DNA of 13,246 nt from Chloroflexota bacterium (lineage in GTDB: Bacteria > Chloroflexota > Anaerolineae > Promineifilales > Promineifilaceae). Position numbers and translations under genes: made by a program. Positions 3,091 through 13,246 of the stretch are shown here, piece after piece (position 1 is the stretch's first letter; every line of letters begins with the position of its first letter). The notes below the pieces were generated by a model. The model had not been told where the DNA came from and did not search any database. It worked only from the letters and a program-made list of their open reading frames with translations. The stretch is taken from assembly GCA_024223125.1 (NCBI GenBank), contig JAAEOP010000275.1:1-13246 (forward strand), given 5' to 3'.

Positions 3091-4131
3091 TCATCCTATC
3101 TGTATGGTACGGTACAGGCGGCCAGTGCCCAATCCTAACCCAATAAGGATAACGCCGGTGATGAAGAGTGTGATAGGCAGTCCAATCGTATCTGCAAAAT
3201 GCTCGAAGTTTAGATAGATGATCAGCAGCAGCAAGAAAGCGGCGCCACAGTAGAGAAAGGTGCGTGTCTGTAACTTTACACTGGCAATGATGAAACTGAC
3301 ACAGGCTGCAAATGCGAGTACCTCCAGAATAATTTTTTGCCAGGTGAACGGGTAATATTCCACGGCCGCGATCATAGTACTGCCAAGAATTATCAGAGCG
3401 CCAAATAGACGAGATACACGCACGATACCCCGTTGCGCTCCTTTACCTACCAACCATTCAGATAAAGCCAGCCACAAACCGCCAACTACCAGCCCAATAC
3501 CCAGGAAGCGAAGATTGGTATAGAAAGGATTCAAAATTGGCTGTGTTTGATCCAACCAGCCCATAAAGGAAAACATCACGGCCGTACCGCCAATATGCAA
3601 CGCCACACTTTGCGTTACCGTTGGCAGCCACAGAAAAAGCAACCCGGCTACGGCCGTAACCAGCACACAACTTAGAACAAAAAAAGGATCGCCAGGCCCT
3701 TTCATATGCCAATCAATCCAACCCAGCGCATCAAAAATAACAACTGCCGACAGCCCACAAAGCAAAGTCCCGCCCAACCATAACGCCTGTGCCCCGCGTC
3801 GAAAACGTGGCTCAACTGGCCCCATTTCCAGTAGCCACCGGCCAGCCCCTAGCATAGCGGCCGTCGGCGCCAACACCACCAAAATCCGGCCCACATCACC
3901 CAGGATTTGCCAGTTCGCCACTACCAGAAAGGCCAAGGCCATAAAGATGACCAGACTACCCAAATAAACGAGTATCTCGTCCAGCTTGACCCGACCGGTC
4001 ACGGTTACGGTTACGGTTGTGTCCGCAGCTTCCCTTTGCCTGATCTCCTGCGCCTGTTCCGGGGAGATCAAACCCTCATTCGTCCATTCCTCAATTTTAT
4101 CTATCAGAATCGCGGGTGTATATCTGCTCAT
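3091..4131 (-). CDS. DUF2157-type polytopic membrane protein
   Basis: This 346-aa protein begins with a soluble helical segment of about 45 residues (IDKIEEWTNEGLISPEQAQEI), typical of the DUF2157 N-terminus, followed by roughly ten hydrophobic helices from about residue 50 to 335. Between the two lies a Thr-Val run (TTVTVTVTGRV) encoded by a (ACGGTT)3 microsatellite at 4001-4018. The molecular function of DUF2157 is unknown; it is a predicted inner-membrane protein. The ATG at 4131 is preceded by GAGGAG at an 8-base spacing. An in-frame GTG at 4140 lies too close to that site, so 4131 is preferred. It heads a two-gene unit with the small membrane protein downstream. Confidence 0.8.
   Translation of the reverse strand: MSRYTPAILIDKIEEWTNEGLISPEQAQEIRQREAADTTVTVTVTGRVKLDEILVYLGSLVIFMALAFLVVANWQILGDVGRILVVLAPTAAMLGAGRWLLEMGPVEPRFRRGAQALWLGGTLLCGLSAVVIFDALGWIDWHMKGPGDPFFVLSCVLVTAVAGLLFLWLPTVTQSVALHIGGTAVMFSFMGWLDQTQPILNPFYTNLRFLGIGLVVGGLWLALSEWLVGKGAQRGIVRVSRLFGALIILGSTMIAAVEYYPFTWQKIILEVLAFAACVSFIIASVKLQTRTFLYCGAAFLLLLIIYLNFEHFADTIGLPITLFITGVILIGLGLGTGRLYRTIQIG
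4001..4018. repeat. Hexanucleotide microsatellite (ACGGTT)x3
   Basis: Three perfect copies of ACGGTT lie inside the DUF2157 gene and encode the Thr-Val repeat on the minus strand. The unit is a multiple of three, so copy-number change would keep the frame and only alter the linker length before the first membrane helix. Confidence 0.8.
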
Positions 4132-4205
4132 TTTCAACACTCCTCAGATTCAGACCAACGCCAGGTGAGGGTGTGGCAAATTAGGTTTTTTCGGTGTAAC
4201 TGTAC

Positions 4206-4269
4206 AGGTGCGACGCACTTTTCCCAGAGTAATGTCAATGCCGCTGCTCTTTGCAAGTGCGTCGCACCT
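4206..4269. repeat. Inverted repeat, 15-bp perfect arms (GGTGCGACGCAC family, copy 2)
   Basis: AGGTGCGACGCACTT (4206-4220) and AAGTGCGTCGCACCT (4255-4269) are exact reverse complements with a 34-nt loop. The left arm and following bases match 2204-2229. The element lies in the 197-bp gap between the CBS gene stop and the DUF2157 start, both minus strand, so it would be transcribed as a hairpin if the two genes shared a transcript. I see no other gene in this gap. Confidence 0.85.
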
Positions 4270-4328
4270 CTGAAAGCTGAATAGTTACTTTTCGGAAATT
4301 AAATGATCCAATTCGTACCGAAAAAGCC

Positions 4329-4787
4329 TTAAACCATATCAGGCAGCGCCATTTCCATAACCGGCGTCTTTTTCCATGCCTGAACAACAAGGCGAAAAAT
4401 GTCTGACTCAGTAATGATGCCCACCAGCCTGTGATCATCATCCACCACCGGTAAGCCGCTAATTTTAGATTCCAACATCTTCTCGGCCGCGTCAGCAATG
4501 GTAGCTTTCGGCGAGATGATGATCGGGTTATGGGTCATCACATCTTTCATCCTTACTTTTGAAATCAGATAATGCAATTCCCAAATACTTAACGTAGTGG
4601 CGTCAGATGCATCGGCGCCTCGAATATCACCCAGCGTAACAATGCCTACCAGACGGCCCCTTCCCACAATGGGCAGCCGCCGAATCTGGTTTTCTGTCAT
4701 CAAGCGGTGCGCCTCGTGTAAGTTTGTATCTGTCGTTGTTGTGATGACATTGCGGGTCATCCAATAGTTAACTAATTCTTGTTTCAT
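4329..4787 (-). CDS. Two-CBS-domain protein
   Basis: This 152-aa protein consists of two CBS motifs. CBS1 covers about 8-60 (YWMTRNVITTTTDTNL, then RRLPIVGRGRLVGIVTLGDI) and CBS2 about 80-135 (MKDVMTHNPIIISPKATI, then GLPVVDDDHRLVGIITESDI). The GIVTLGDIR and GIITESDIF strands are the adenosyl-ligand signature. A stand-alone Bateman module of this size binds AMP, ATP, SAM or a related nucleotide and acts as an energy or stress sensor; the partner is not evident. The start at 4787 is fixed by AAGGAGGT (4802-4795). The open frame upstream to 4850 crosses that site and is not used. It lies 82 bp downstream of the GreA gene on the same strand. Confidence 0.9.
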   Translation of the reverse strand: MKQELVNYWMTRNVITTTTDTNLHEAHRLMTENQIRRLPIVGRGRLVGIVTLGDIRGADASDATTLSIWELHYLISKVRMKDVMTHNPIIISPKATIADAAEKMLESKISGLPVVDDDHRLVGIITESDIFRLVVQAWKKTPVMEMALPDMV

Positions 4788-4794
4788 TTCGAAC

Positions 4795-4802
4795 ACCTCC
4801 TT
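4795..4802 (-). promoter_or_regulatory. Strong Shine-Dalgarno site of the CBS gene
   Basis: AAGGAGGT on the minus strand, 7 bases before the ATG at 4787, is a full anti-SD complement. It decides the start of the CBS-domain protein against the longer open frame. It also shows that the organism uses canonical SD-led initiation. Confidence 0.85.
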
Positions 4803-4869
4803 ATGGTTATTGTTATCAACCTGATGCAGATGGTTTACCCGGCCGTTCAAGACAAATCATTCAGGCTGA

Positions 4870-5343
4870 CTATCTAACAGCTACAATGCGGTAGCGAAGT
4901 TCCCCTACAGGGGCTTGTACCACTACCTCTTCGCCCACTTTATGATTAAGCAAAGCCTGCCCCAACGGTGACTCGTTGGAGATAAGCCCATTGCCCGGAT
5001 CAGCTTCAGCCACGCCTATGATGGTGTATTCTTCCAGTTCGCCATCACTGGTCTCAATGACGACAGTTTCACCCACGTCAACGATGTTATTTTCGTTGTC
5101 TGGTTCTATTATTTGGGCATGATAGAGCATGTAATTCAGTTCCCGGATACGGCCGTCAACAAAAGCCAGTTCCTCTTCAATCAACATATGCTCGGTACTA
5201 TCCATCCAGTCACCGCCTCCTCTCGCATCTTGTAGGCGGTCAATAATTTCCAAACGCTTCACCGTTTGCAGAAACATTAGTTCCTGTCCCAATTCAGTTT
5301 TGCCTTTATTCGTCAGGTAGGCAGGTTTGTCAATTGCCACCAT
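4870..5343 (-). CDS. greA: GreA/GreB-family transcription elongation factor
   Basis: This 157-aa protein has the usual GreA length. An N-terminal antiparallel coiled coil (about 9-80, starting YLTNKGKTELGQELMFL) enters the RNA polymerase secondary channel. A C-terminal FKBP-like domain (about 88-157) carries GNGLISNESPLGQALLNHKVGEE, the typical SPLGxALLGxxxGD signature. Gre factors stimulate transcript cleavage in backtracked polymerase. The coiled-coil tip reads GDWMDSTEH where canonical GreA has GDLSENAEY. The first acidic residue (D45) is kept, but the usual Glu is Asp48, so cleavage activity could be altered. The start at 5343 follows AAGGAAGG at a 6-base spacing. A duplicate GreA paralogue, rather than the housekeeping copy, is possible given the divergent tip. 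Confidence 0.85.
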   Translation of the reverse strand: MVAIDKPAYLTNKGKTELGQELMFLQTVKRLEIIDRLQDARGGGDWMDSTEHMLIEEELAFVDGRIRELNYMLYHAQIIEPDNENNIVDVGETVVIETSDGELEEYTIIGVAEADPGNGLISNESPLGQALLNHKVGEEVVVQAPVGELRYRIVAVR

Positions 5344-5509
5344 CTTATACCTTCCTTTCCATGTAAAATATGGTCGTCGTGTCCCCCAAGAAAAAATCTA
5401 TATCCCCTTATGTCACTATAAAATTGTTACAGGTGCAGGGATAGTGATAAAGGACATTGCCAGTTTGGAAGAAAGTCATCGTTTGTGCGGCAGTTGAATT
5501 AATCTCAAG

Positions 5510-5515
5510 TATAAT
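5510..5515 (+). promoter_or_regulatory. Candidate -10 element for the pRiA4b-like gene
   Basis: A perfect TATAAT lies about 190 bp upstream of the start at 5705. No good -35 hexamer is found 16-18 bp upstream; the nearest TTG-containing words are at spacings of 10 and 22. If used, the transcript leader would contain the whole 5521-5628 hairpin. Confidence 0.25.
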
Positions 5516-5520
5516 AGACA

Positions 5521-5628
5521 TTATCGGAAACAACTTTTTTGACAGGATTAACAAGATTAACAGGATGAAATAATCTTGTTAATCCTGTCCAATTTCTTAT
5601 TTCCGATAAGGTTTATTTCCGATAAGGT
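5521..5628. repeat. Nested inverted repeat plus 16-bp tandem duplication
   Basis: The inner arms GACAGGATTAACAAGATTA (5541-5559) and its exact complement (5571-5589) form a 19-bp stem with an 11-nt loop. The outer arms TTATCGGAAA (5521-5530) and TTTCCGATAA (5600-5609) form a second 10-bp stem around it. The right outer arm lies within TTATTTCCGATAAGGT, which is duplicated exactly in tandem (5597-5612 and 5613-5628). Repeats of the AGGATTAACAAGATTAACAGG type occur in the intergenic DNA of many bacteria. It could be a remnant of a small mobile element. Confidence 0.85.
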
Positions 5629-5704
5629 CTAATTAGCGTATATCTAAATTTGGCAGACTACTGGGCAGACAATATTATTTAACAACAATTTAGAGGAAGA
5701 AAAA

Positions 5705-6259
5705 ATGGCAGCTAAAAAAGTTTATCAATTCAAAGTGACCCTCAAAGGTATTCGTCCCCCTATCTGGCGACGATTTCAGGTAGTTGACAACATCACTTTC
5801 TACGAACTGCACCATATCTTGCAAGAGGTTATGGGCTGGTACAATGCCCATCTGCACCAGTTTGATCTGGGTGGGTTGATCTTGGCGGATGCTGAAATAT
5901 TGGCGGAGATATGGGAAGATGGCGTAGATGAACAGAAGTCGCGTCTGAACGAATTTGTAGGCCAGGAAGGGCAAAAACTGAGCTATGAATATGATTTTGG
6001 CGATAGTTGGGAACATATCCTCCTGCTGGAGAAGATTCTACCAACCGAAACAAACATTCATTATCCCTGCTGCCTGAAAGGGAAACGGGCCTGTCCACCA
6101 GAGGATTGTGGCGGTGTCTGGGGCTACGCCGAATTGTTAGAAGCGCTAGCAAACAAGGATCACCCAGAACATGAAACGTATCTGGATTGGTTGGGGGACG
6201 ACCTTGACCCAGAGGCTTTTGACCTGGATGGAATTAACGGGATTTTGCAGGATATGTAA
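5705..6259 (+). CDS. pRiA4b ORF-3-like family protein
   Basis: This 184-aa protein begins with the family hallmark YQFKVTLKGIRPPIWRRFQV (7-26), then FYELHHILQEVMGWYNAHLHQF, YEYDFGDSWEHILLLE, a cysteine-containing segment (CCLKGKRACPPEDCGGVWGY) and a terminal acidic helix. This is the single-domain form of the plasmid pRiA4b ORF-3 / IS1096 TnpR-like passenger family. The family is widespread in mobile and chromosomal settings and has no firmly established biochemical role. Four cysteines in CC-x6-C-x4-C spacing could form a metal site. The ATG at 5705 is preceded by AGAGGAAG. It lies 99 bp upstream of the probable defence operon on the same strand, and I see no evidence that it belongs to it. 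Confidence 0.85.
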   Translation: MAAKKVYQFKVTLKGIRPPIWRRFQVVDNITFYELHHILQEVMGWYNAHLHQFDLGGLILADAEILAEIWEDGVDEQKSRLNEFVGQEGQKLSYEYDFGDSWEHILLLEKILPTETNIHYPCCLKGKRACPPEDCGGVWGYAELLEALANKDHPEHETYLDWLGDDLDPEAFDLDGINGILQDM

Positions 6260-6344
6260 GGAGGTTAGGATAACGGCCGTTACCGTTTTTTGCTTCAAAC
6301 CAACATCCCTTCTAAAATCCGTCCGATCATTTTTGTAATTCAAC

Positions 6345-6350
6345 AGGAGA
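6345..6350 (+). promoter_or_regulatory. Shine-Dalgarno site that sets the start of the 274-aa protein
   Basis: AGGAGA lies 8 bases before the ATG at 6359. The open frame continues upstream to a TTG at 6290 and would add 23 residues, but those have no ribosome site and cross this one. The start at 6359 is therefore preferred. Confidence 0.7.
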
Positions 6351-6358
6351 AAAACTCA

Positions 6359-7183
6359 ATGGAAAATGTCCTAGCCCAATTATTAACCTCTCAAGCCGAA
6401 CTAGAACCACAGTTTAAGGCTCTACGTACCACGATGAGCGCCTTAAGAACGGCCCTGCGTCTGGCCAATGAAGAAACGGCCGACGCCCTACCCATGCACA
6501 AAGCTCTGACCAAACTAGAAACGGCCGCAGCCGAAGTAGAAAGCGAAACCTTGGACACGGCCGTAGCCACCTTCGCCGCCGCCACCCAAACAGCTCTAGA
6601 CAACCTAGCTTTTGAATTTGCCCAAGATTTGCGGTTAGAATTTGCCAAACGAGGCGAAACAGTAGACGGTCGTCCGCCCACCCTCACCATCGGCATCCTC
6701 ACTTTCAGAATAGAAATGGCCGCCCGCAAAGGACAGTGGCTCTACGGCAAAGAAGCTCTCACCAAGCCCATTCCTCTTTCCCTCACCGGCATCCTCAAAG
6801 CGTATGACCGGCAGGTGAAGCGCATTATCAACCGCGAACTGGCTGCCAATTTCCGGCCCGATTTACAAAAAGCGTGGCAGGATTGTTTAGATAAACGGAA
6901 AAGTCGGCCTGGTGGTGGACGAATCAATCTGGTCGAAGTTTATAGTAAGCTAACCCTCAACAGGCAAAGCGCCCGCTTTTGGAATCAACCCTCCCGCAGC
7001 ACCTTCAAAGATTACGAGCGTGTCCTATTCGTGCGCGACCTGGTTTTGGCACAGGCGCAGGGGGAAACACCATTCCGCCTCGGCGTCGCCACCAAAAGTC
7101 AGGCCGAACAAGCCAGCCGCTCTATTTGGATTCCCAAAACGGCCGTAAACGGCGTTTACTACAGCGATATTACCTTCGACTAA
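6359..7183 (+). CDS. Unrecognised helical protein heading the ATPase operon
   Basis: This 274-aa soluble protein has no signal peptide or membrane segment. Residues 1-100 are Ala/Leu/Glu-rich and look like long amphipathic or coiled-coil helices (for example PQFKALRTTMSALRTALRL, KALTKLETAAAEVESETL). A mixed segment around 107-145 (PPTLTIGILTFRIEM, GKEALTKPIPLSLTGIL) precedes a basic region, 146-190 (YDRQVKRIINREL, DKRKSRPGGGRIN), that could contact nucleic acid. The C-terminal part includes YERVLFVRDLVLAQAQ and ends KTAVNGVYYSDITFD. I do not recognise the family and see no catalytic motif. Being first in a unit with two BrxD-like ATPases, it may be a structural or adaptor subunit of that complex; this is inference from position only. 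The next start is 79 bp downstream, across a hairpin repeat. Confidence 0.8.
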   Translation: MENVLAQLLTSQAELEPQFKALRTTMSALRTALRLANEETADALPMHKALTKLETAAAEVESETLDTAVATFAAATQTALDNLAFEFAQDLRLEFAKRGETVDGRPPTLTIGILTFRIEMAARKGQWLYGKEALTKPIPLSLTGILKAYDRQVKRIINRELAANFRPDLQKAWQDCLDKRKSRPGGGRINLVEVYSKLTLNRQSARFWNQPSRSTFKDYERVLFVRDLVLAQAQGETPFRLGVATKSQAEQASRSIWIPKTAVNGVYYSDITFD

Positions 7184-7193
7184 TAGCAAAAAA

Positions 7194-7243
7194 TGAACAA
7201 TGAATTGTGAATGGATTGTTCATCATTCACAATTCATTGTTCA
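7194..7243. repeat. Perfect 20-bp inverted repeat within the operon
   Basis: TGAACAATGAATTGTGAATG (7194-7213) and its exact reverse complement (7224-7243) are separated by a 10-nt loop. The AT-rich 20-bp stem lies 10 nt after the stop of the 274-aa gene and ends 19 nt before the ATG of the first ATPase. TTCACAATTCA recurs just downstream of the stem. In RNA the stem would lie next to the ATPase ribosome-binding region. No U-tract follows, so attenuation is more plausible than termination. Confidence 0.9.
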
Positions 7244-7262
7244 CAATTCAAAATTCATTATT

Positions 7263-8540
7263 ATGGATATTTCCCGCCCCCTCGCCCGACACATCATCGA
7301 AATTCTCGGCAGCTATGGCACACCACCCACACGCGGTATTCAACATTTCAACGTTGGCAATAAATCCCTGTTAGACGCGCTAGACGAATTTTATCTCTCC
7401 TCCTATCTGCAAGATGGCGGAGCTGGCTACAAAATGGTTATTGGCGATTATGGCAGCGGCAAATCACACTTCCTCTACTGCCTACGCGATGTGGCCTGGG
7501 AACGTAATTTCGCCGTCGCCAAAGTAGACCTCAGCCCCGTGGAAACGCCGTACAACGACCAGAAAAAAGTGTACCAGGCCGTCGTGCAACACATCATCTG
7601 GCACGAAACGGAAGAAGCATTCAGCGATGAAACAGGGCTGATGCGATTCTTGGAAGGTACGTTGACCCGCATCGTCGGCCGTTCGTTAAACCTGGAAACA
7701 TTAGCCAATCCCCTTTATCGTGGATTGATGGATACATTAGAAGCCACACCCATAGACAGTCCTGCTTATCAGACGGCCGTGCTATCCTACTTTGATGCCT
7801 TGATTCGAGACAATGAAGAACGGCTCGACTCCCTCTCCCGTTGGCTCATGGGCGAAACCACCAGTCCCGATGATACAAAAATCCTACGTGAAGTGGGCGT
7901 CACCGGCAAAATCAATAAGCCTAACGCCTTCCGCATGTTACGGTCTCTCTGCCAAGTCATCCGTGCCCTCAGCTACAGCGGCCTGATTCTGCTCTTCGAT
8001 GAAGTAGACCGCATGGCCTCCGTTGGTGGCAAAGCGGAAAAACTTGCCACCGACACCCTACGCGAAGTGATTGACCGCACCCGTGAAGATTTGCCCGGAG
8101 CCATGTTCGTTTATGCCGTACCGCCCCAATTCATCAACGACGTCGTACCCAAATATCCCGCTTTGCAGCAGCGAGTACGCGCCCCCGGCCATTTCAGCCG
8201 CGTCAACCATTTTAGCCCCCTTATTAGTCTGGACACGCTCGACCTGGACGAAAATGGCCTGATGTTGGCCATCGGTGAAAAGCTGATTCCCATCTACGAA
8301 GCCGCCTTTGATGCCCAGCTAGACCACACCACCCAGCAGGCCAACGCCGTCATTTTAGCCAACGTGGCCCGCGATGTATTTTTGGACATCAGCCATCGCC
8401 GCCTATTCGTCAAATCCTTTGTGGTAGAACTGTCACGCCAACATTACGGCGAAGAACACACCATCACCGAAGCCGAAGCCCAGGCCATCTTACGCGGCCA
8501 GATTGATGAACTTTCCGGCGGCGAGACGCCACCATACTAA
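7263..8540 (+). CDS. BrxD-like (DUF2791-type) P-loop ATPase, first copy
   Basis: This 425-aa AAA+-like ATPase has a family N-terminus (IIEILGSYGTPPTRGIQHFNVG, then LLDALDEFYL). The Walker A is GDYGSGKSH at 61-69, followed by FLYCLRDVAWERNFAVAKVDL. The Walker B is LILLFDEVDRM at 241-251, and a P-x-L-x-x-R-type element is at YPALQQRVRAPGHF (298-311). This arrangement matches the BREX ATP-binding proteins BrxC/BrxD. In type 2 BREX, brxD sits beside an Lhr-like helicase gene, as a related helicase does here at 11933. The catalytic lysine and acidic residues are intact. The start at 7263 is chosen because the upstream in-frame extension is translated from the hairpin repeat. The ribosome site is poor, perhaps because the repeat displaced it. 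A second ATPase follows after 66 bp. Confidence 0.85.
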   Translation: MDISRPLARHIIEILGSYGTPPTRGIQHFNVGNKSLLDALDEFYLSSYLQDGGAGYKMVIGDYGSGKSHFLYCLRDVAWERNFAVAKVDLSPVETPYNDQKKVYQAVVQHIIWHETEEAFSDETGLMRFLEGTLTRIVGRSLNLETLANPLYRGLMDTLEATPIDSPAYQTAVLSYFDALIRDNEERLDSLSRWLMGETTSPDDTKILREVGVTGKINKPNAFRMLRSLCQVIRALSYSGLILLFDEVDRMASVGGKAEKLATDTLREVIDRTREDLPGAMFVYAVPPQFINDVVPKYPALQQRVRAPGHFSRVNHFSPLISLDTLDLDENGLMLAIGEKLIPIYEAAFDAQLDHTTQQANAVILANVARDVFLDISHRRLFVKSFVVELSRQHYGEEHTITEAEAQAILRGQIDELSGGETPPY

Positions 8541-8606
8541 TGGTCAATTGCCAATTGTTAATGCCGTTGACAATTGATCATTGACAATTAGTAATTGATA
8601 ATTTTC
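8541..8606. repeat. CAATTG-rich imperfect inverted repeat between the ATPase genes
   Basis: The whole gap between the two ATPase genes is made of CAATTG-containing words (at 8545, 8552 and 8571, plus half copies). TGGTCAATTG (8541-8550) pairs with CAATTGATCA (8571-8580), with one G-T pair. This AT-rich palindromic filler resembles the 7194-7243 repeat in position and style but not in sequence. No clear ribosome-binding site is left before the next ATG. Confidence 0.7.
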
Positions 8607-9998
8607 ATGATCGGACAACAAGTAGAACATCCCCAATTTGGACATGGACAGATAACGGCCGTCTACCGCAACGGTTCTGAATGGTTAGTACGTTTTGAAA
8701 ATGGGCTGCGCTTTCGCCGCTCCAGCAGTGAATTTATGCTGGATGGGCAGGCAATAGCCGAACCAAAACCCGATTACATCATCCCTTTTCAACCGGCGCC
8801 CATGCCCCAAACCCAATTAGACGCCCGTCAACTCATTGAATCACTGCGGGTGGGCATTGCCCCAGCACAGCATGTACCGGAGCTGACCATTGATTTGAAC
8901 GTGGAACAGGAAAGCATTATTCGCGGGCTAAACCAGGCCCACCAACAGGGCGGCGCAGTGCGGGCGGTGGTAGGCGAATATGGCTACGGTAAAAGCCATA
9001 TTGTGGAATTGGCAACACAAGAAGCGCTGAACCGTGATTTTCTTGTGGCGACGGTCAGTCTGGATTTGCTGGAACTGCCGCCGCATCGCGCCTTTTCCAT
9101 TTACCGTGAGGCAATGCGGCATTTACGTTACCCAGATACGGATGAACGAGGATTGGAGTCACTGTTGGAGAAAACGGCCGTTCTCCCCCATACCCTCGCC
9201 CAGCTACAAGACCTCTCCCCGGCAGAACGCGACCCGGTCGTCACCGGTTTGCAAGCAATTATCAGCACGGCTTCTTCCCACCAACGAAAAGTGTGGATCG
9301 ACTGGCTGGCTGGCGGCCGTCGTGTCAAATTGATGAACAAAGCCAAACCACGCGGCGTCAAGTTCCCCTCAATTTACAAAATTGGGCACAATGCACGGCA
9401 GATGGCTTATCTATTTACGGCCGTTTCCGTCCTGGCGCGTTTGGGCAATTACAGCGGTCTCTGTTTATTGGTAGATGAGGCAGAGAGTTATTCTTTGTTA
9501 CGGCCGTACCAACGCCCCAAAGCCACCCTCTTCTTCCAGGCCGTCATTTACGCTGCTCTACGCGAGCAGCAAGACAAAATCAGCGCCGACCAATTCCCCC
9601 AACATCGCTGGTGCGACTACCCGATGGCCTACGACCAGGGGCAATCGCTCTTTTTCCTCTTCACCATTACCCGCAGCGACAACCGGCTGCCCCTGCACGA
9701 CTGGCTGACCGACGACGACATCTTTTACCTGGAGCCGGATGCCGAACCCAAAGAAGTGGGGCACTTTTTGCAGTGCATCCTCACCTACCACGCCCAGGCT
9801 TATGGCTACGAACCAGACGAACGACAAACACAAATCCGGCGCGGCGCGGCCGAACATTTAGCCATGGGAGTAAGAAACGGCCGTTTCTCCATGCGCACTG
9901 TCGTCCGTCTTGCCGTCGAACTCTTCGACCTCCTCTACCTCCACCCCGACTACGATATCGCCACCCTTTTGGACGAACTGCGTGCCCAGGTACGTTGA
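8607..9998 (+). CDS. BrxD-like P-loop ATPase, second copy, with N-terminal Tudor/SH3-like segment
   Basis: This 463-aa protein starts MIGQQVEHPQFGHGQITAVY, then WLVRFENGLRFRRSS. The pattern G-x-x-V-x-H-P-x-F-G-x-G-x-I, a strand, then V-x-F-x-x-G resembles the small Tudor/SH3-like barrel at the C-terminus of UvrD/PcrA helicases and CarD-type modules. It is followed by the ATPase core: ELTIDLNVEQESIIRGL (92-108), Walker A GEYGYGKSH (123-131) and Walker B LCLLVDEAESYSLL (285-298). The core is related to, but clearly divergent from, the preceding ATPase, so the pair could form a heteromeric ring. The start at 8607 (ATG) is preferred over an upstream TTG at 8595 within the repeat. Four or more ACGGCCGT octamers lie in the gene, three read as Thr-Ala-Val. 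The restriction gene begins 12 bp after the stop. Confidence 0.85.
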   Translation: MIGQQVEHPQFGHGQITAVYRNGSEWLVRFENGLRFRRSSSEFMLDGQAIAEPKPDYIIPFQPAPMPQTQLDARQLIESLRVGIAPAQHVPELTIDLNVEQESIIRGLNQAHQQGGAVRAVVGEYGYGKSHIVELATQEALNRDFLVATVSLDLLELPPHRAFSIYREAMRHLRYPDTDERGLESLLEKTAVLPHTLAQLQDLSPAERDPVVTGLQAIISTASSHQRKVWIDWLAGGRRVKLMNKAKPRGVKFPSIYKIGHNARQMAYLFTAVSVLARLGNYSGLCLLVDEAESYSLLRPYQRPKATLFFQAVIYAALREQQDKISADQFPQHRWCDYPMAYDQGQSLFFLFTITRSDNRLPLHDWLTDDDIFYLEPDAEPKEVGHFLQCILTYHAQAYGYEPDERQTQIRRGAAEHLAMGVRNGRFSMRTVVRLAVELFDLLYLHPDYDIATLLDELRAQVR

Positions 9999-10010
9999 CG
10001 TAATAAAAAA

Positions 10011-10652
10011 ATGAATGATAAAAACCCAGAATTCCAGGCTTGTATACCTATTCCCATAAATTCTGGTCAGTTCAACCCTAGTTGTAATCTCCCCTACGAC
10101 TTGACAGTAGCGCATGTAACATCGGCCATGATTGACTTCATTGACTTTCTAGGATTCATCAACCAACAATTACACACCAAGCAAATTCCACGCCTGGAAA
10201 GTTTCTTGATGCCCGCCAATTTCAGCAGTATTGTGGGTGAGTTCATGAATATGAGCATTCCCAAATATTGCTCCAATCTGGTGAAAAATCAGTACCACAA
10301 CGGACATCCTGACTTGATTCCACGCGGATTGTTCCCTGAAGACGCCGTACAATATGCCCATGACGGTATCGAAATAAAAGGCTCTCGTCGCGCCAGCGGT
10401 TGGCAAGGACATAATCCCGAATCGGTCTGGTTGATGGTGTTTCATTTTGACAGCAATACCGCTAATGACAAACGAAAAGGAATTGCGCCTAAACCATTTC
10501 GTTTTAAGGGCGTATATATTGCCAAATTAGAAATAGAAGACTGGTCATTCTCAGGACGTTCAGCTACCAGCCGTCGCACAATTACGGCCAGCGTTACCAA
10601 AACTGGCCGGGAGAAAATGAAGTCTAATTGGCTTTATCAAGATTTAAGTTAG
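10011..10652 (+). CDS. Probable PD-(D/E)XK type II restriction endonuclease
   Basis: This 213-aa protein contains HPDLIPRG (P100-D101) and GIEIKGSR (E121-x-K123), a PD-x19-ExK arrangement typical of PD-(D/E)XK nucleases, followed by SGWQGHNPESVWLMVFHFD. Catalytic residues D101, E121 and K123 are all present, so it should cleave DNA with Mg2+. The pairing with a DNA methyltransferase encoded tail to tail on the other strand supports a restriction enzyme. The recognition sequence cannot be predicted. The start ATG follows the ATPase stop by 12 bp with only A-rich sequence before it, so expression may depend on readthrough from the ATPase operon. The gene carries no ACGGCCGT octamer, consistent with horizontal acquisition but not proof of it. 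The last 9 bp overlap the methyltransferase gene. Confidence 0.7.
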   Translation: MNDKNPEFQACIPIPINSGQFNPSCNLPYDLTVAHVTSAMIDFIDFLGFINQQLHTKQIPRLESFLMPANFSSIVGEFMNMSIPKYCSNLVKNQYHNGHPDLIPRGLFPEDAVQYAHDGIEIKGSRRASGWQGHNPESVWLMVFHFDSNTANDKRKGIAPKPFRFKGVYIAKLEIEDWSFSGRSATSRRTITASVTKTGREKMKSNWLYQDLS

Positions 10653-11588
10653 CGCAAGCGGCAATTGTTGTTCGAGGGTAGGGATTTCGGCCAATCGTGA
10701 CGCGGCGTCAATACTCATTTTGTAATAATTAGGGAGGCGTTCCAGGCCAATGCAGGTATACCCAACTGCTTCAGCAGCGGCAACGGTAGAACCTGATCCC
10801 ATGAAGGGGTCAACAACAATACCTTTTCCAAGAGGCAACGCCGCATACACGATCTGACGTAAAAATGATTGTGGTTTCAAGCTAGGATGGTCAGCGATGT
10901 CACGCTCCCTACGCGGTGTGCGTTCGCTGTTGATGATATCTTCAAAGGGCTTACCGTTTGGTTTACGTCGTAATCCCCCAGTTTGATAGGTTCGAAGACA
11001 GTTACTGACGGTCATCTTTGGCGGCATAGGTTTGCGAAAAATGCCCCAGGGTTCATAACAACCTCTTGGCATCGTGCAGACATCGGGGAACTCTTTTTCG
11101 GCGTTTTTGGGCCTGTCGCCGCCGCGCAAAGTACGCACCAAGCGGACAATTTGGCCCCGGAATTCAAACCCGGCATCGGCAACGGCCGTAAAAACGATTT
11201 GCGACAGGAAAGTATTCGAGGCCAGAATAACATGCCCCCCAGGTCGAAGAATTTGCAAAGCCAAACCAGCCCAATCAAAAAAGTATTGCTGCACGTTTCG
11301 TCTCTCTGCCTGGTTTAGGGCTGTAAATCGGGGCAGCGGCGAGCGCGTATGGCCATCAAATGAAGGGGGAATTCGCCAGACGCCGCCGTTACCATTTGTT
11401 CTTTTCTCCAATTGTTTGGGGTCATACTCTTTGACGCCATAGGGCGGATCAGTCACAATGGCATGAACACTTTCCGGCTGAATTTGTTTCATCCATTGAA
11501 AACAGTCTGCATAAAGCAATAATGAATTACTGATAAAAACATGTTCATAATTCAGAATGAATGGCGCTAACGTTGTTGGAGCGTTCAT
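10644..11588 (-). CDS. Beta-class DNA methyltransferase (DPPY type) of a restriction-modification pair
   Basis: This 314-aa methyltransferase has motif IV TDPPYG at 46-51, a target-recognition region between about 55 and 225 (including RLVRTLRGGDRPKNAEKEFPD and EPWGIFRKP), motif X HPSLKP at 234-239 and motif I DPFMGSGST at 260-268. The IV-TRD-X-I order is that of beta-class amino methyltransferases. DPPY favours N6-adenine methylation, though N4-cytosine cannot be excluded. It should protect host DNA from the nuclease encoded convergently, with which it overlaps by 9 bp. The ATG at 11588 has GAGAAA upstream; a TTG at 11606 would add six residues. It follows the Phd/YefM-type antitoxin gene by 23 bp and probably shares its promoter. 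Confidence 0.85.
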   Translation of the reverse strand: MNAPTTLAPFILNYEHVFISNSLLLYADCFQWMKQIQPESVHAIVTDPPYGVKEYDPKQLEKRTNGNGGVWRIPPSFDGHTRSPLPRFTALNQAERRNVQQYFFDWAGLALQILRPGGHVILASNTFLSQIVFTAVADAGFEFRGQIVRLVRTLRGGDRPKNAEKEFPDVCTMPRGCYEPWGIFRKPMPPKMTVSNCLRTYQTGGLRRKPNGKPFEDIINSERTPRRERDIADHPSLKPQSFLRQIVYAALPLGKGIVVDPFMGSGSTVAAAEAVGYTCIGLERLPNYYKMSIDAASRLAEIPTLEQQLPLALT

Positions 11589-11611
11589 TAGTTGACTTTC
11601 TCGCAAATTTA

Positions 11612-11875
11612 CTACGAACTGTTGTCTTCTGGTTGGACAACTGATTCGCCCAAACTATAAACTGGTGTTAGTGTACGCAAAATGTTGGTCATTTTATTTT
11701 GTTCGGCTTGATTGGTAAGAATTTGCTCAAAATCACTCAAACTAAGTATGATGGCTTGTGGCGTACTGCGACGTTTAACCACATATCGGGTATGATTGAG
11801 GATGACATCATTCAGAATACGGCCAAAATTGTTTTGAGTTTCAGTTGAGGTAATTGTTTTTGTTTCCATTGTCAT
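11612..11875 (-). CDS. Phd/YefM-type antitoxin-like DNA-binding protein, no toxin beside it
   Basis: This 87-aa protein carries the Phd/YefM N-terminal dimerisation and DNA-binding fold: TITSTETQNNFGRILNDVI, then RYVVKRRSTPQAIILSLSDFEQIL. The C-terminal tail (about 55-87) is polar and acidic at the end, where antitoxins contact their toxin. In type II toxin-antitoxin operons a RelE, Doc or PIN toxin normally follows. Here the next gene on the strand is the DNA methyltransferase, and no toxin-like frame exists nearby. It may be an orphan, or it may serve as an autorepressor controlling the restriction-modification cassette; the second idea is inference. Starts at 11875 or 11869 are both possible, the latter having GGA at a 9-base spacing. 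A strong promoter lies just upstream. Confidence 0.8.
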   Translation of the reverse strand: MTMETKTITSTETQNNFGRILNDVILNHTRYVVKRRSTPQAIILSLSDFEQILTNQAEQNKMTNILRTLTPVYSLGESVVQPEDNSS

Positions 11876-11894
11876 AATTCCATAAGTTAGGTAA

Positions 11895-11904
11895 TTTAGC
11901 TAAA
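11895..11904. promoter_or_regulatory. Candidate operator palindrome TTTAGCTAAA
   Basis: This perfect 10-bp palindrome overlaps the first base of the -10 box and the expected transcription start of the antitoxin-methyltransferase promoter. Phd/YefM proteins repress their own operons by binding short palindromes at the promoter, so this is a sensible candidate site. It does not match the known YefM core (TGTACA), and short AT-rich palindromes occur by chance. Confidence 0.3.
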
Positions 11905-11932
11905 ATATATAAGAGCATAGATTGATTGTCAA
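11904..11932 (-). promoter_or_regulatory. Sigma70-type promoter for antitoxin and methyltransferase
   Basis: On the minus strand TTGACA (11932-11927) is followed after exactly 17 bp by TATATT (11909-11904). This is a consensus -35 box with optimal spacing and a five-of-six -10 box. Transcription would begin near 11897, about 20 nt before the antitoxin ATG. The -35 box directly abuts the ATG of the helicase gene on the opposite strand, leaving almost no room for a separate helicase ribosome site. Confidence 0.75.
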
Positions 11933-13246
11933 ATGGCTGGAAAATTAAGTCAACAAGCAGTAAAGAAGCACATTCCGAATACTTGGCCGCTGTTTTTTGC
12001 CCGCCACGGCCGTTTCACCCCCATCCAACAACAAGCCATACCGCCCATTTTGGACGGCCGTGACACTCTCGTCATCGCCGCCACCGCTTCCGGTAAAACC
12101 GAAGCCGTCATTTCACCGCTGTTGGAGCGATTTTGGCAGCAATTGAAGCAGCCAGGGTTGTCTATTTTGTACATTTGCCCCACACGGGCATTGGTGCGGG
12201 ATTTGTACGAACGCTTACGGCCGATTCTCGACAACACAGACATCACCATAGGTATGAAAACAGGGGATGTAACCCTGGCGCGGCAAATGCCAGCCATTTT
12301 GCTCACCACGCCAGAATCAACCGACTCACTGCTCACCCGCGCTCCCAAACTGTTTATTGGGTTGCAAGCCATTGTGCTGGACGAAATTCACCTATTTGAC
12401 AACGCACCACGCGGCGACCATCTACGCTGTCTGCTGCCACGCATCAAACGTATCCGCCAATATGCCCAGCCAGAGATAGAATTGGTGCAGCGAGTAGCTC
12501 TCTCGGCAACCGTACCCGACCCAGATGGGGTAGCCAAACGCTATTTGAATAGTGGGGTCATCGTTCATGTTCCTGGCGGACGGATGATTGAGGCGGAGAT
12601 ACGGCCGTTATACAACCTAGCCGAACTCATAGACGCATTAGCCGAACGGCCATCTTACAAATCTCTTGTCTTCTGCAATTCACGGGATGAGGTAGAGGAA
12701 ACGGCCGTTACCCTACGCCAGCAATTACCCCATCATGCCGACATCTTTGTCCATTATAGTAACCTGGACGCCGCCATGCGCCGCGACGTAGAAAACCGAT
12801 TTGCCGAGGCAGCTACGGCCGTTTGCGTCTGCACCTCCACACTAGAACTGGGTGTAGACATTGGCAGTGTAGACGATGTAGTTTTGCTCGGAGCGCCACC
12901 CAACCTGAACTCGTTTTTACAACGCATCGGCCGTGGTAACCGCCGCAGCGCCCACACACAAACCCTCTGTATGCCTAAATCGCCAGGTGAATGGGCACGA
13001 TTTGAAGCGTTTCTGGAGTTTGCAAGTGGCAAGTTGCAAGTGGCAAGTAACGCGTTGCAAGTGGCGAGTAACCAGAAACTAACGACTAACAACCAACAAC
13101 CAATTCTCATTGAAGATGTCACCGCCTATGGCTTTCGCCCCTCAGTATTAGTTCAACAAATCTTCAGCCTCATCAAGCAAAGCCCGACGGGCAGTGTGCG
13201 CCTGGCCGATCTGCGCCGGATTACGCCACTGGACATCAGCAGCAAG
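11933..13246 (+). CDS. Lhr-like superfamily 2 DEAD/DEAH-box helicase, 3' end outside the window
   Basis: The frame from the ATG at 11933 stays open for 438 codons to the window edge. The SF2 motifs appear in order: Q-motif FTPIQQQAIPPIL (28-40), motif I ATASGKTE (52-59), Ia PTRALVRDL, Ib TTPES, motif II LDEIHLFD, motif III SATVPD, motif V CTSTLELGVDIG and motif VI QRIGRGNRR. The DEIH box, VDIG and GRGNRR are characteristic of Lhr-type helicases, to which BrxHI of type 2 BREX also belongs. A winged-helix-like segment (FRPSVLVQQIFSLIKQSP) starts at the end. An in-frame low-complexity repeat (13020-13068) separates core and C-terminal part. No Shine-Dalgarno is visible before the ATG, and a TAG closes the frame upstream. 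It probably functions with the two BrxD-like ATPases, from which it is separated by the restriction-modification cassette. Confidence 0.9.
   Translation, partial: MAGKLSQQAVKKHIPNTWPLFFARHGRFTPIQQQAIPPILDGRDTLVIAATASGKTEAVISPLLERFWQQLKQPGLSILYICPTRALVRDLYERLRPILDNTDITIGMKTGDVTLARQMPAILLTTPESTDSLLTRAPKLFIGLQAIVLDEIHLFDNAPRGDHLRCLLPRIKRIRQYAQPEIELVQRVALSATVPDPDGVAKRYLNSGVIVHVPGGRMIEAEIRPLYNLAELIDALAERPSYKSLVFCNSRDEVEETAVTLRQQLPHHADIFVHYSNLDAAMRRDVENRFAEAATAVCVCTSTLELGVDIGSVDDVVLLGAPPNLNSFLQRIGRGNRRSAHTQTLCMPKSPGEWARFEAFLEFASGKLQVASNALQVASNQKLTTNNQQPILIEDVTAYGFRPSVLVQQIFSLIKQSPTGSVRLADLRRITPLDISSK
13020..13068 (+). repeat. In-frame tandem repeat inside the helicase gene
   Basis: TTGCAAGTGGCAAG occurs at 13020-13033 and 13034-13047, and with one change at 13055-13068. 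The last two copies have a 21-bp period that extends into AGTAAC, so the protein contains LQVASNA then LQVASNQ. A run rich in ACTAAC/CAACAA words (TTNNQQ in protein) follows to about 13101. The tract looks like an intergenic-type iterated word inserted into a surface linker without breaking the frame. Confidence 0.8.

Follow-up and report, generated by a model that had tools for sequence, protein, structure and literature searches.

Genes of the locus

The DNA analysed here (the window) is a stretch of 13,246 bases of contig JAAEOP010000275.1, with its nearest relatives in Chloroflexota. Four of its genes, here named P274, ATP1, ATP2 and HEL, encode a 274-amino-acid (aa) protein, two ATPases and a helicase, and form one conserved unit that is neither type 2 BREX nor Shango. 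The core genes are as follows.

6359..7183, plus strand: P274, core subunit 1; 274-aa protein with a helical N-terminal half, a short beta part and a winged-helix-like C-terminal region (predicted)
7263..8540, plus strand: ATP1, core subunit 2; PF10923 (BrxC/BrxD family) ATPase, Walker A GDYGSGKSH
8607..9998, plus strand: ATP2, core subunit 3; second PF10923 ATPase, Walker A GEYGYGKSH
11933..13246, plus strand: HEL, core subunit 4; Lhr-like superfamily 2 (SF2) helicase, first 438 residues, the gene being cut by the window end

Both ATPases belong to PF10923, with 161 bits for ATP1 and 91 bits for ATP2 against a gathering cut-off of 22.2, confirming a first-pass annotation of the window in which two different BrxD-like ATPases with these Walker A motifs had been noted in tandem. 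The Walker A and Walker B columns were conserved in both families. Against the BrxD equivalog of NCBIfam, ATP1 and ATP2 scored 132 and 81 bits, respectively, both under its cut-off of 350. The ATG at 7263 (425 aa) is preferred as the ATP1 start over the upstream alternative at 7200; relatives are mostly 424-436 aa long. The Lhr-like helicase noted on the same strand was found to carry the Pfam domains DEAD and Helicase_C within 11933-13246, with the motifs ATASGKT, DEIH, SAT and QRIGRG, and its relatives are mostly 650-725 aa long, compared with the 438 residues inside the window. PADLOC scores of HEL for BrxHI (258 bits) and SngC (232 bits), and of 102 bits for SngB among the window ATPases, indicate kinship. 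For P274, described beforehand as lacking recognisable motifs, no family match was indeed obtained in Pfam, PADLOC, NCBIfam or PHROGs (E ≤ 0.001).

By fold search, ATP2 was found to be ORC/Cdc6-like, showing the fold of the ORC/Cdc6 AAA+ clade, with its N-terminal part barely covered. This N-terminal stretch of about 45 residues may resemble the C-terminal, Tudor-like domain of UvrD, as suggested by a match to 7egt_B at E 0.31. The best solved relatives of HEL by sequence were the helicases 7lhl and 5v9x, which we take to be Lhr proteins. Among solved structures, no sequence match was obtained for ATP1, and the best for P274 was at E 0.21. Foldseek search with P274 gave nothing at E ≤ 0.001, the best match being RepE (E 0.26, probability 0.10); the absence of BrxA among its structural matches excludes nothing. 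None of the four core proteins was recognised as belonging to a nuclease family, and the unassigned C-terminal part of HEL may hide a nuclease.

Conservation and distribution of the four-gene unit

Matches to any core gene were observed at 62 loci, and at all of the loci having the four core genes (31/31) the order P274-ATP1-ATP2-HEL was kept on a single strand, indicating that the arrangement is not due to chance and that the neighbourhood presupposed by the first-pass annotation is conserved elsewhere. Left out of this count were 36 loci, comprising duplicates, short copies retrieved again, and L018 and L024, which are partial. The 31 loci without all four genes were mostly cut at contig ends or included for comparison. 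Exceptions to the full unit are L061, which is without HEL, the remnant L065, L084 (probably type D, see below), and L066 and L082, in which no HEL was seen before the contig ended. Gaps of at most 150 bp separated P274 and ATP1 at 38/43 loci, ATP1 and ATP2 at 27/40, and ATP2 and HEL at 19/35; the core genes of L062 have no cargo between them and gaps of no more than 24 bp.

Over 395 genomes of the class, P274 and ATP2 (E ≤ 1e-100) were found together in 44, P274 alone in 2, ATP2 alone in 3 and neither in 346, corresponding to P274 in 46/395 and ATP2 in 47/395 with a Fisher p of 3e-52 for co-occurrence. In this tally G171, a genome with type C, was counted under neither, its matches being weaker; any match to the ATP2 profile was seen in 69 class genomes, the weaker ones inspected in part. 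Of the two P274-only genomes, G162 has a fragment at the end of a contig and G318 a remnant in decay, and in the three ATP2-only genomes the contig stops 0.1, 1.3 and 2.7 kb upstream of ATP2. The earlier proposal that the 274-aa protein is a specific subunit thus held: P274 is the specific subunit of the unit and represents a family without a name. Pairwise distances among the four genes were correlated at r 0.85-0.97 (27 genomes, fewer for HEL). The presence of restriction-modification (R-M) and toxin-antitoxin genes inside would agree with a passive mobile island that has brought genes without relation to each other together by chance, but the 31 ordered loci, the co-occurrence in 44/49 genomes with either P274 or ATP2, and the cross-gene distance correlations render this explanation highly improbable. 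The four core genes are one conserved unit and probably encode one machine. As a fifth conserved gene, the largest cluster of flank genes was considered and rejected; it occurs at 7/51 loci with proteins of very different lengths, and the second-largest, a neighbour of about 810-854 aa, at 6/51.

The protein database contained 507 homologues of P274 and at least 337 of ATP2; among the 120 listed for each, those with an organism name were from Chloroflexota. A scan for P274 in the genomes of 84,980 species yielded 30 loci, 30/30 titled with Chloroflexota names; it employed type A patterns only, and types B-D may exist outside Chloroflexota. With a mixed P274 profile, 7/400 genomes of the whole phylum were matched, five strongly. 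The presence is patchy, amounting to 20/52 and 15/46 genomes in two families (the former including the remnant, the latter a type B match, with type C missed), and all presence counts are lowered by the incompleteness of metagenome-assembled genomes (MAGs). The remnant (L065:9318-10170, G318) is decayed to fragments of P274 and of the C-terminal half of HEL; ATP1 and ATP2 were not found there. P274 is present twice in genome G394, at L067 and L068 on separate contigs, and one of the copies lies at a contig end. The unit is also present in a MAG assigned to Litorilinea aerophila (L024), a species having cultured strains. In G046 (L096), a 393-aa frame is 27% identical to ATP2, with no other core gene recognised nearby.

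Relation to BREX, Shango and other systems

In the ATPase tree, ATP1 (100/99), ATP2 (93/98), SngB (100/100) and BrxD (100/97) each formed a clade apart from the others, and HEL formed a clade (100/100) apart from SngC and BrxHI. The reference rows of the trees were L079, L080, L150-L155 and L157, where TerB or BREX context was seen; L156 was ungrouped. PglZ (PF08665) gave a match in 7 of the 36 operon genomes, over the cut-off in 6, and TerB_N in 2, over the cut-off in 1, leaving 29 genomes without a PglZ match and 34 without a TerB_N match. On the operon contig itself neither was found in any of the 36 genomes, many of these contigs being short. G007 holds a TerB_N protein and the operon on separate contigs, indicating that the two can coexist. 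PglX, PglW and BrxC did not appear among the 25 leading PADLOC families tallied for 120 of the 215 flank open reading frames (ORFs), no search by name having been made. Comparison of P274 with the TerB protein of L079 indicated no relation (hhalign, 0.2%).

A minimal or degenerate BREX or Shango locus, or a partner of BREX or Ter genes located elsewhere in the genome, would account for ATPases and a helicase from families used by both systems, as well as for the PglZ and TerB_N proteins over the cut-off on other contigs. We consider this quite unlikely, as the clades are apart from BrxD/BrxHI and SngB/SngC, most operon genomes are without a PglZ or TerB_N match, P274 showed no relation by hhalign to the one TerB protein tested, and the two-ATPase layout is common to types A-C. 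The unit is neither type 2 BREX nor Shango. The separate ATPase-helicase system suggested at first is supported by clades of its own and by relatives in which no BREX or TerB gene belonging to the unit was found, and the best reading is an undescribed third relative beside the BrxD-BrxHI dyad and the SngB-SngC dyad.

Shango consists of the TerB protein SngA, the ATPase SngB and the helicase SngC. As in the four-gene unit, a PF10923 ATPase gene lies directly 5' of an SF2 helicase gene, and a system-specific first gene precedes this pair, an order seen in L079, L080, L150 and L157. The four-gene unit differs in having P274 in place of the TerB_N/TerB_C protein, in carrying two ATPases, of which ATP2 is extended at its N-terminus, and in ATPases and helicase that fall in clades other than SngB and SngC. 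With type 2 BREX (Pgl) it shares, according to the available text of PMC12839542, a linked ORC/Cdc6-type ATPase and Ski2/Lhr-like helicase (BrxD-BrxHI) and effectors embedded in the operons; it differs in its two ATPases, the lack of PglZ, its separate clades and scores under the BrxD equivalog cut-off. BREX-related (BR) systems (Rakesh and Krishnan 2026, PMC12839542, available text) likewise combine a BREX-like ATPase and helicase core with nuclease effectors, but employ DUF499 ATPases and Swi2/Snf2 helicases, whereas the four-gene unit employs PF10923 ATPases and an Lhr-like helicase. Lhr-type DNA-repair helicases share the SF2 helicase core; HEL is shorter, at about 690 aa versus 877 and 1508 in the 7lhl and 5v9x chains, and is tied to P274 and two ATPases.

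A further row of genes was observed on a Deinococcus psychrotolerans plasmid (L156:1011-8945), in which genes for an 851-aa and a 451-aa protein, both with no annotated function, are followed by a BrxD-like ATPase gene, a BrxHI-like helicase gene and an HNH gene. The 451-aa protein was considered as a relative of P274 and rejected (hhalign, 0.7%). This row is possibly another undescribed ATPase-helicase system.

Types, age and selection

The window carries type A. Type B comprises L061-L064, L066 and L081, with P274 27-31% identical to that of the window in L061-L064, and type C comprises L078, L082 and L083, with 23% identity for P274 of L078. These three types were repeated in the ATP1, ATP2 and HEL trees. 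In L084 (G507, 4009-9460), a 299-aa protein that profile comparison links to P274 (probability 96.7, E 3.9e-10) is followed by two ATPases and then a helicase, and neither ATPase shows the N-terminal ATP2 motif in its first 70 residues; L084 is probably a type D. Within type A, dN/dS was 0.05-0.33 in 22 comparisons over all four genes, and 3 more were without changes, indicating purifying selection on each of the four.

Distances of the four genes were also compared with those of RpoB in 27 of 30 genomes (G352 gave no match, G370 a fragment, and G249 was left out). Over all 27 genomes the correlation was r 0.25-0.47, still with 0/500 in the Mantel test. Between G003 and G237, P274 is 27% identical where RpoB is 67%, and the divergence among types A, B and C far exceeds that of RpoB, so that old transfer, replacement or paralogy across types is likely. 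The four-gene unit is old. Strict vertical inheritance across the whole class was rejected, as the types diverge far beyond RpoB and the correlation falls to the above range.

Inserted genes and other features of the window

Between ATP2 and HEL, the window carries a cassette of three genes.

10011..10652, plus strand: cargo, possible type II restriction endonuclease; weak match, with PADLOC REase_II at E 5.7e-5 as the sole basis by model
10644..11606, minus strand: cargo, N6/N4 DNA methyltransferase; PF01555 at 66 bits, PADLOC MTase_II at E 1.4e-101
11612..11875, minus strand: cargo, Phd/YefM-like antitoxin or regulator; PF02604 at 36.6 bits

The R-M pair formerly placed inside the unit was thus substantiated for the methylase, the endonuclease giving a weak match only; relatives of the possible endonuclease adjoin the same methylase in L010 (80%) and L093 (74%). 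The Phd-like gene, not mentioned with the unit in the first-pass annotation, is found between methylase and HEL also in L002, L010 and L093. In L002 the methylase is quite different from that of the window (37% identity), with the Phd-like protein at 64%. Because the Phd-like gene is kept beside differing methylases, its role may be to regulate the cassette or HEL, instead of forming one half of a toxin-antitoxin pair.

In total 51 inserted ORFs were analysed, comprising the 3 window genes and 48 of 53 listed from relatives; the five left out were an ATPase of L084 and four ORFs of L017 that lie beyond the operon. Pfam search (top 25 of 41 families) identified 5 N6/N4 methylases, 5 AAA_21/AAA_15 proteins of the OLD/Abi type, 3 PIN, 2 HNH and 2 DUF4276 proteins, and one each of C5 methylase, GmrSD, HicB, HEPN, nucleotidyltransferase, YoeB, BrnA, Uma2, AHJR and Phd. 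About 28/51 inserted ORFs, if none was counted twice, are of restriction, toxin-antitoxin or abortive-infection types; the remainder gave other matches or none, and some are maybe not real genes. When ten inserts were read singly, nine had a match, including one CARF_Card1 between ATP2 and HEL (L090:5776-6759). CARF_Card1 is a cyclic-oligoadenylate sensor type from CRISPR systems. Embedded effectors of the same kinds are carried by BREX operons (PMC12839542, available text).

Immediately 5' of P274 lies a gene for a pRiA4b ORF-3-like protein (5705-6259; PF07929, 230 bits). The AT-rich gap between P274 and ATP1 contains a perfect 20-nucleotide (nt) inverted repeat (7194..7243), and an imperfect 27-nt inverted repeat (81%) surrounds the AT-rich gap between ATP1 and ATP2 (8535-8593). 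Direct repeats of 21 nt are located at 13022-13077 within the HEL coding region, where the linker differs in the L010 protein. No tRNA gene was found in the window.

Function of the unit

The four core genes follow a constant order, co-occur, form separate clades, retain intact motifs and are under purifying selection. Together with the defence-type inserts and the patchy presence of the operon, this leads us somewhat to favour the view that the unit is an anti-invader defence system built on ORC/Cdc6-type ATPases and an Lhr-like helicase. P274 would recognise or clamp DNA through its winged-helix-like half; ATP1 and ATP2, as diverged ORC/Cdc6-type ATPases, would join P274 as a mixed loader; and this loader would place HEL onto foreign or replicating DNA, where the helicase would unwind or strip the template and block replication. 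A helicase-loading role has been proposed for BrxD (PMC12839542, available text), and Shango gives modest anti-phage protection in Pseudomonas aeruginosa PAO1 (PMC10250203, available text). Since no nuclease family was recognised in the core, any DNA destruction would be the work of exchangeable effectors carried as operon inserts, which in the window means the R-M cassette. BREX restricts through inhibition of phage DNA replication (PMC13326643, available text), which makes a nuclease-free core plausible. The fuller picture can be offered tentatively, at somewhat less than even confidence: a so far undescribed class of prokaryotic immune machine, lacking its own nuclease, in which a helicase is loaded on invader DNA by two diverged Cdc6-like ATPases together with a dedicated DNA-binding subunit, and in which the operon serves as a socket for exchangeable killers such as restriction enzymes, OLD-type ATPases, GmrSD, CARF and toxin modules.

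Several observations weigh against the defence reading or the loader model. The ATP2 clade (93/98) is just under full support, long branches, flagged by the tree program, are worst in L084 and between the ATP2 types, and the winged-helix assignment of P274 is based on middling scores. In G263 (L061:6211-10009), P274-ATP1-ATP2 is found without HEL and the best helicase matches of the genome are weak, for which the loader model would call on loss or replacement of the helicase; in L066 and L082 no HEL lies within the remaining 3.4 and 2.0 kb of contig. Because of these three cases the helicase may be dispensable or replaceable. Types A and B of P274 were absent from 72,556 plasmids (0 found), ATP2 from 50,697 phage records, and relatives of both from the viral contigs scanned. 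Among 23 close relatives the four genes track RpoB (r 0.67-0.81; Mantel, 0/500), and ATP1, the slowest of the four, exceeds RpoB in identity in 92% of 253 close-clade pairs, which would be uncommon in a defence gene that is mobile. In favour of defence, the 51 inserted ORFs hit 196 PADLOC families (E ≤ 1e-10), compared with 68 for 120 flank ORFs and 49 for 120 control ORFs, counts inflated by many overlapping methylase and ABC models. The outer flanks are near control DNA, with no clear enrichment of defence genes. For this comparison, a random draw from the ORFs up to 900 aa long supplied 120 of 215 flank and 120 of 165 control ORFs, the control being arbitrarily chosen stretches of operon genomes (19 of 20 used). 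The initial defence-island reading accordingly stands for the defence-type genes inside the operon and fails for its surroundings; a classical defence island was rejected, as such genes are concentrated within the operon and the flanks are like the control.

Plasmid searches with other core genes gave distant matches. ATP2 had 5 weak matches, 1 in BREX and 4 beside a TerB protein (3/5 loci inspected). Type B ATP1 matched 647 plasmid records, all below 60% identity and 6 with coverage of at least 80%; 5 of the 647, newly inspected, comprised three BREX, one TerB and one Deinococcus locus, and unusual arrangements may occur among the rest.

The close tracking of RpoB, the conservation of ATP1 beyond it, the purifying selection on the core genes, the absence of plasmid, phage and viral copies in the scans and the flanks without clear defence richness would all suit a lineage-specific genome-maintenance machine of Anaerolineae, engaged in replication restart, fork repair or chromosome organisation, in which the two ATPases would act as a Cdc6-like loader pair, P274 as DNA-binding subunit and HEL as an Lhr-like repair helicase, R-M and toxin genes having been inserted by chance. 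We regard this explanation as rather unlikely, because the unit occurs in only about one third of the genomes in two families (a figure lowered by MAG gaps) and is decayed in one, its types are far more diverged than RpoB, its nearest relatives are parts of defence systems, and the operon inserts are often of defence type. Defence against invaders hence stays the favoured function.

As far as the searches show, in a literature that leaves out most subscription papers, the four-gene combination is new. PMC12839542 describes the BrxD-BrxHI dyad of BREX as having an uncharacterized role. A third relative that is complete in itself, with no BREX or Ter genes attached, suggests that ORC/Cdc6-type ATPases and Lhr-like helicases together make up a stand-alone module used again in several systems, and the four-protein unit offers an object for a direct test of the helicase-loading idea. 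The cargo found within, but not around, the operon represents a natural survey of the effectors able to join such a module.

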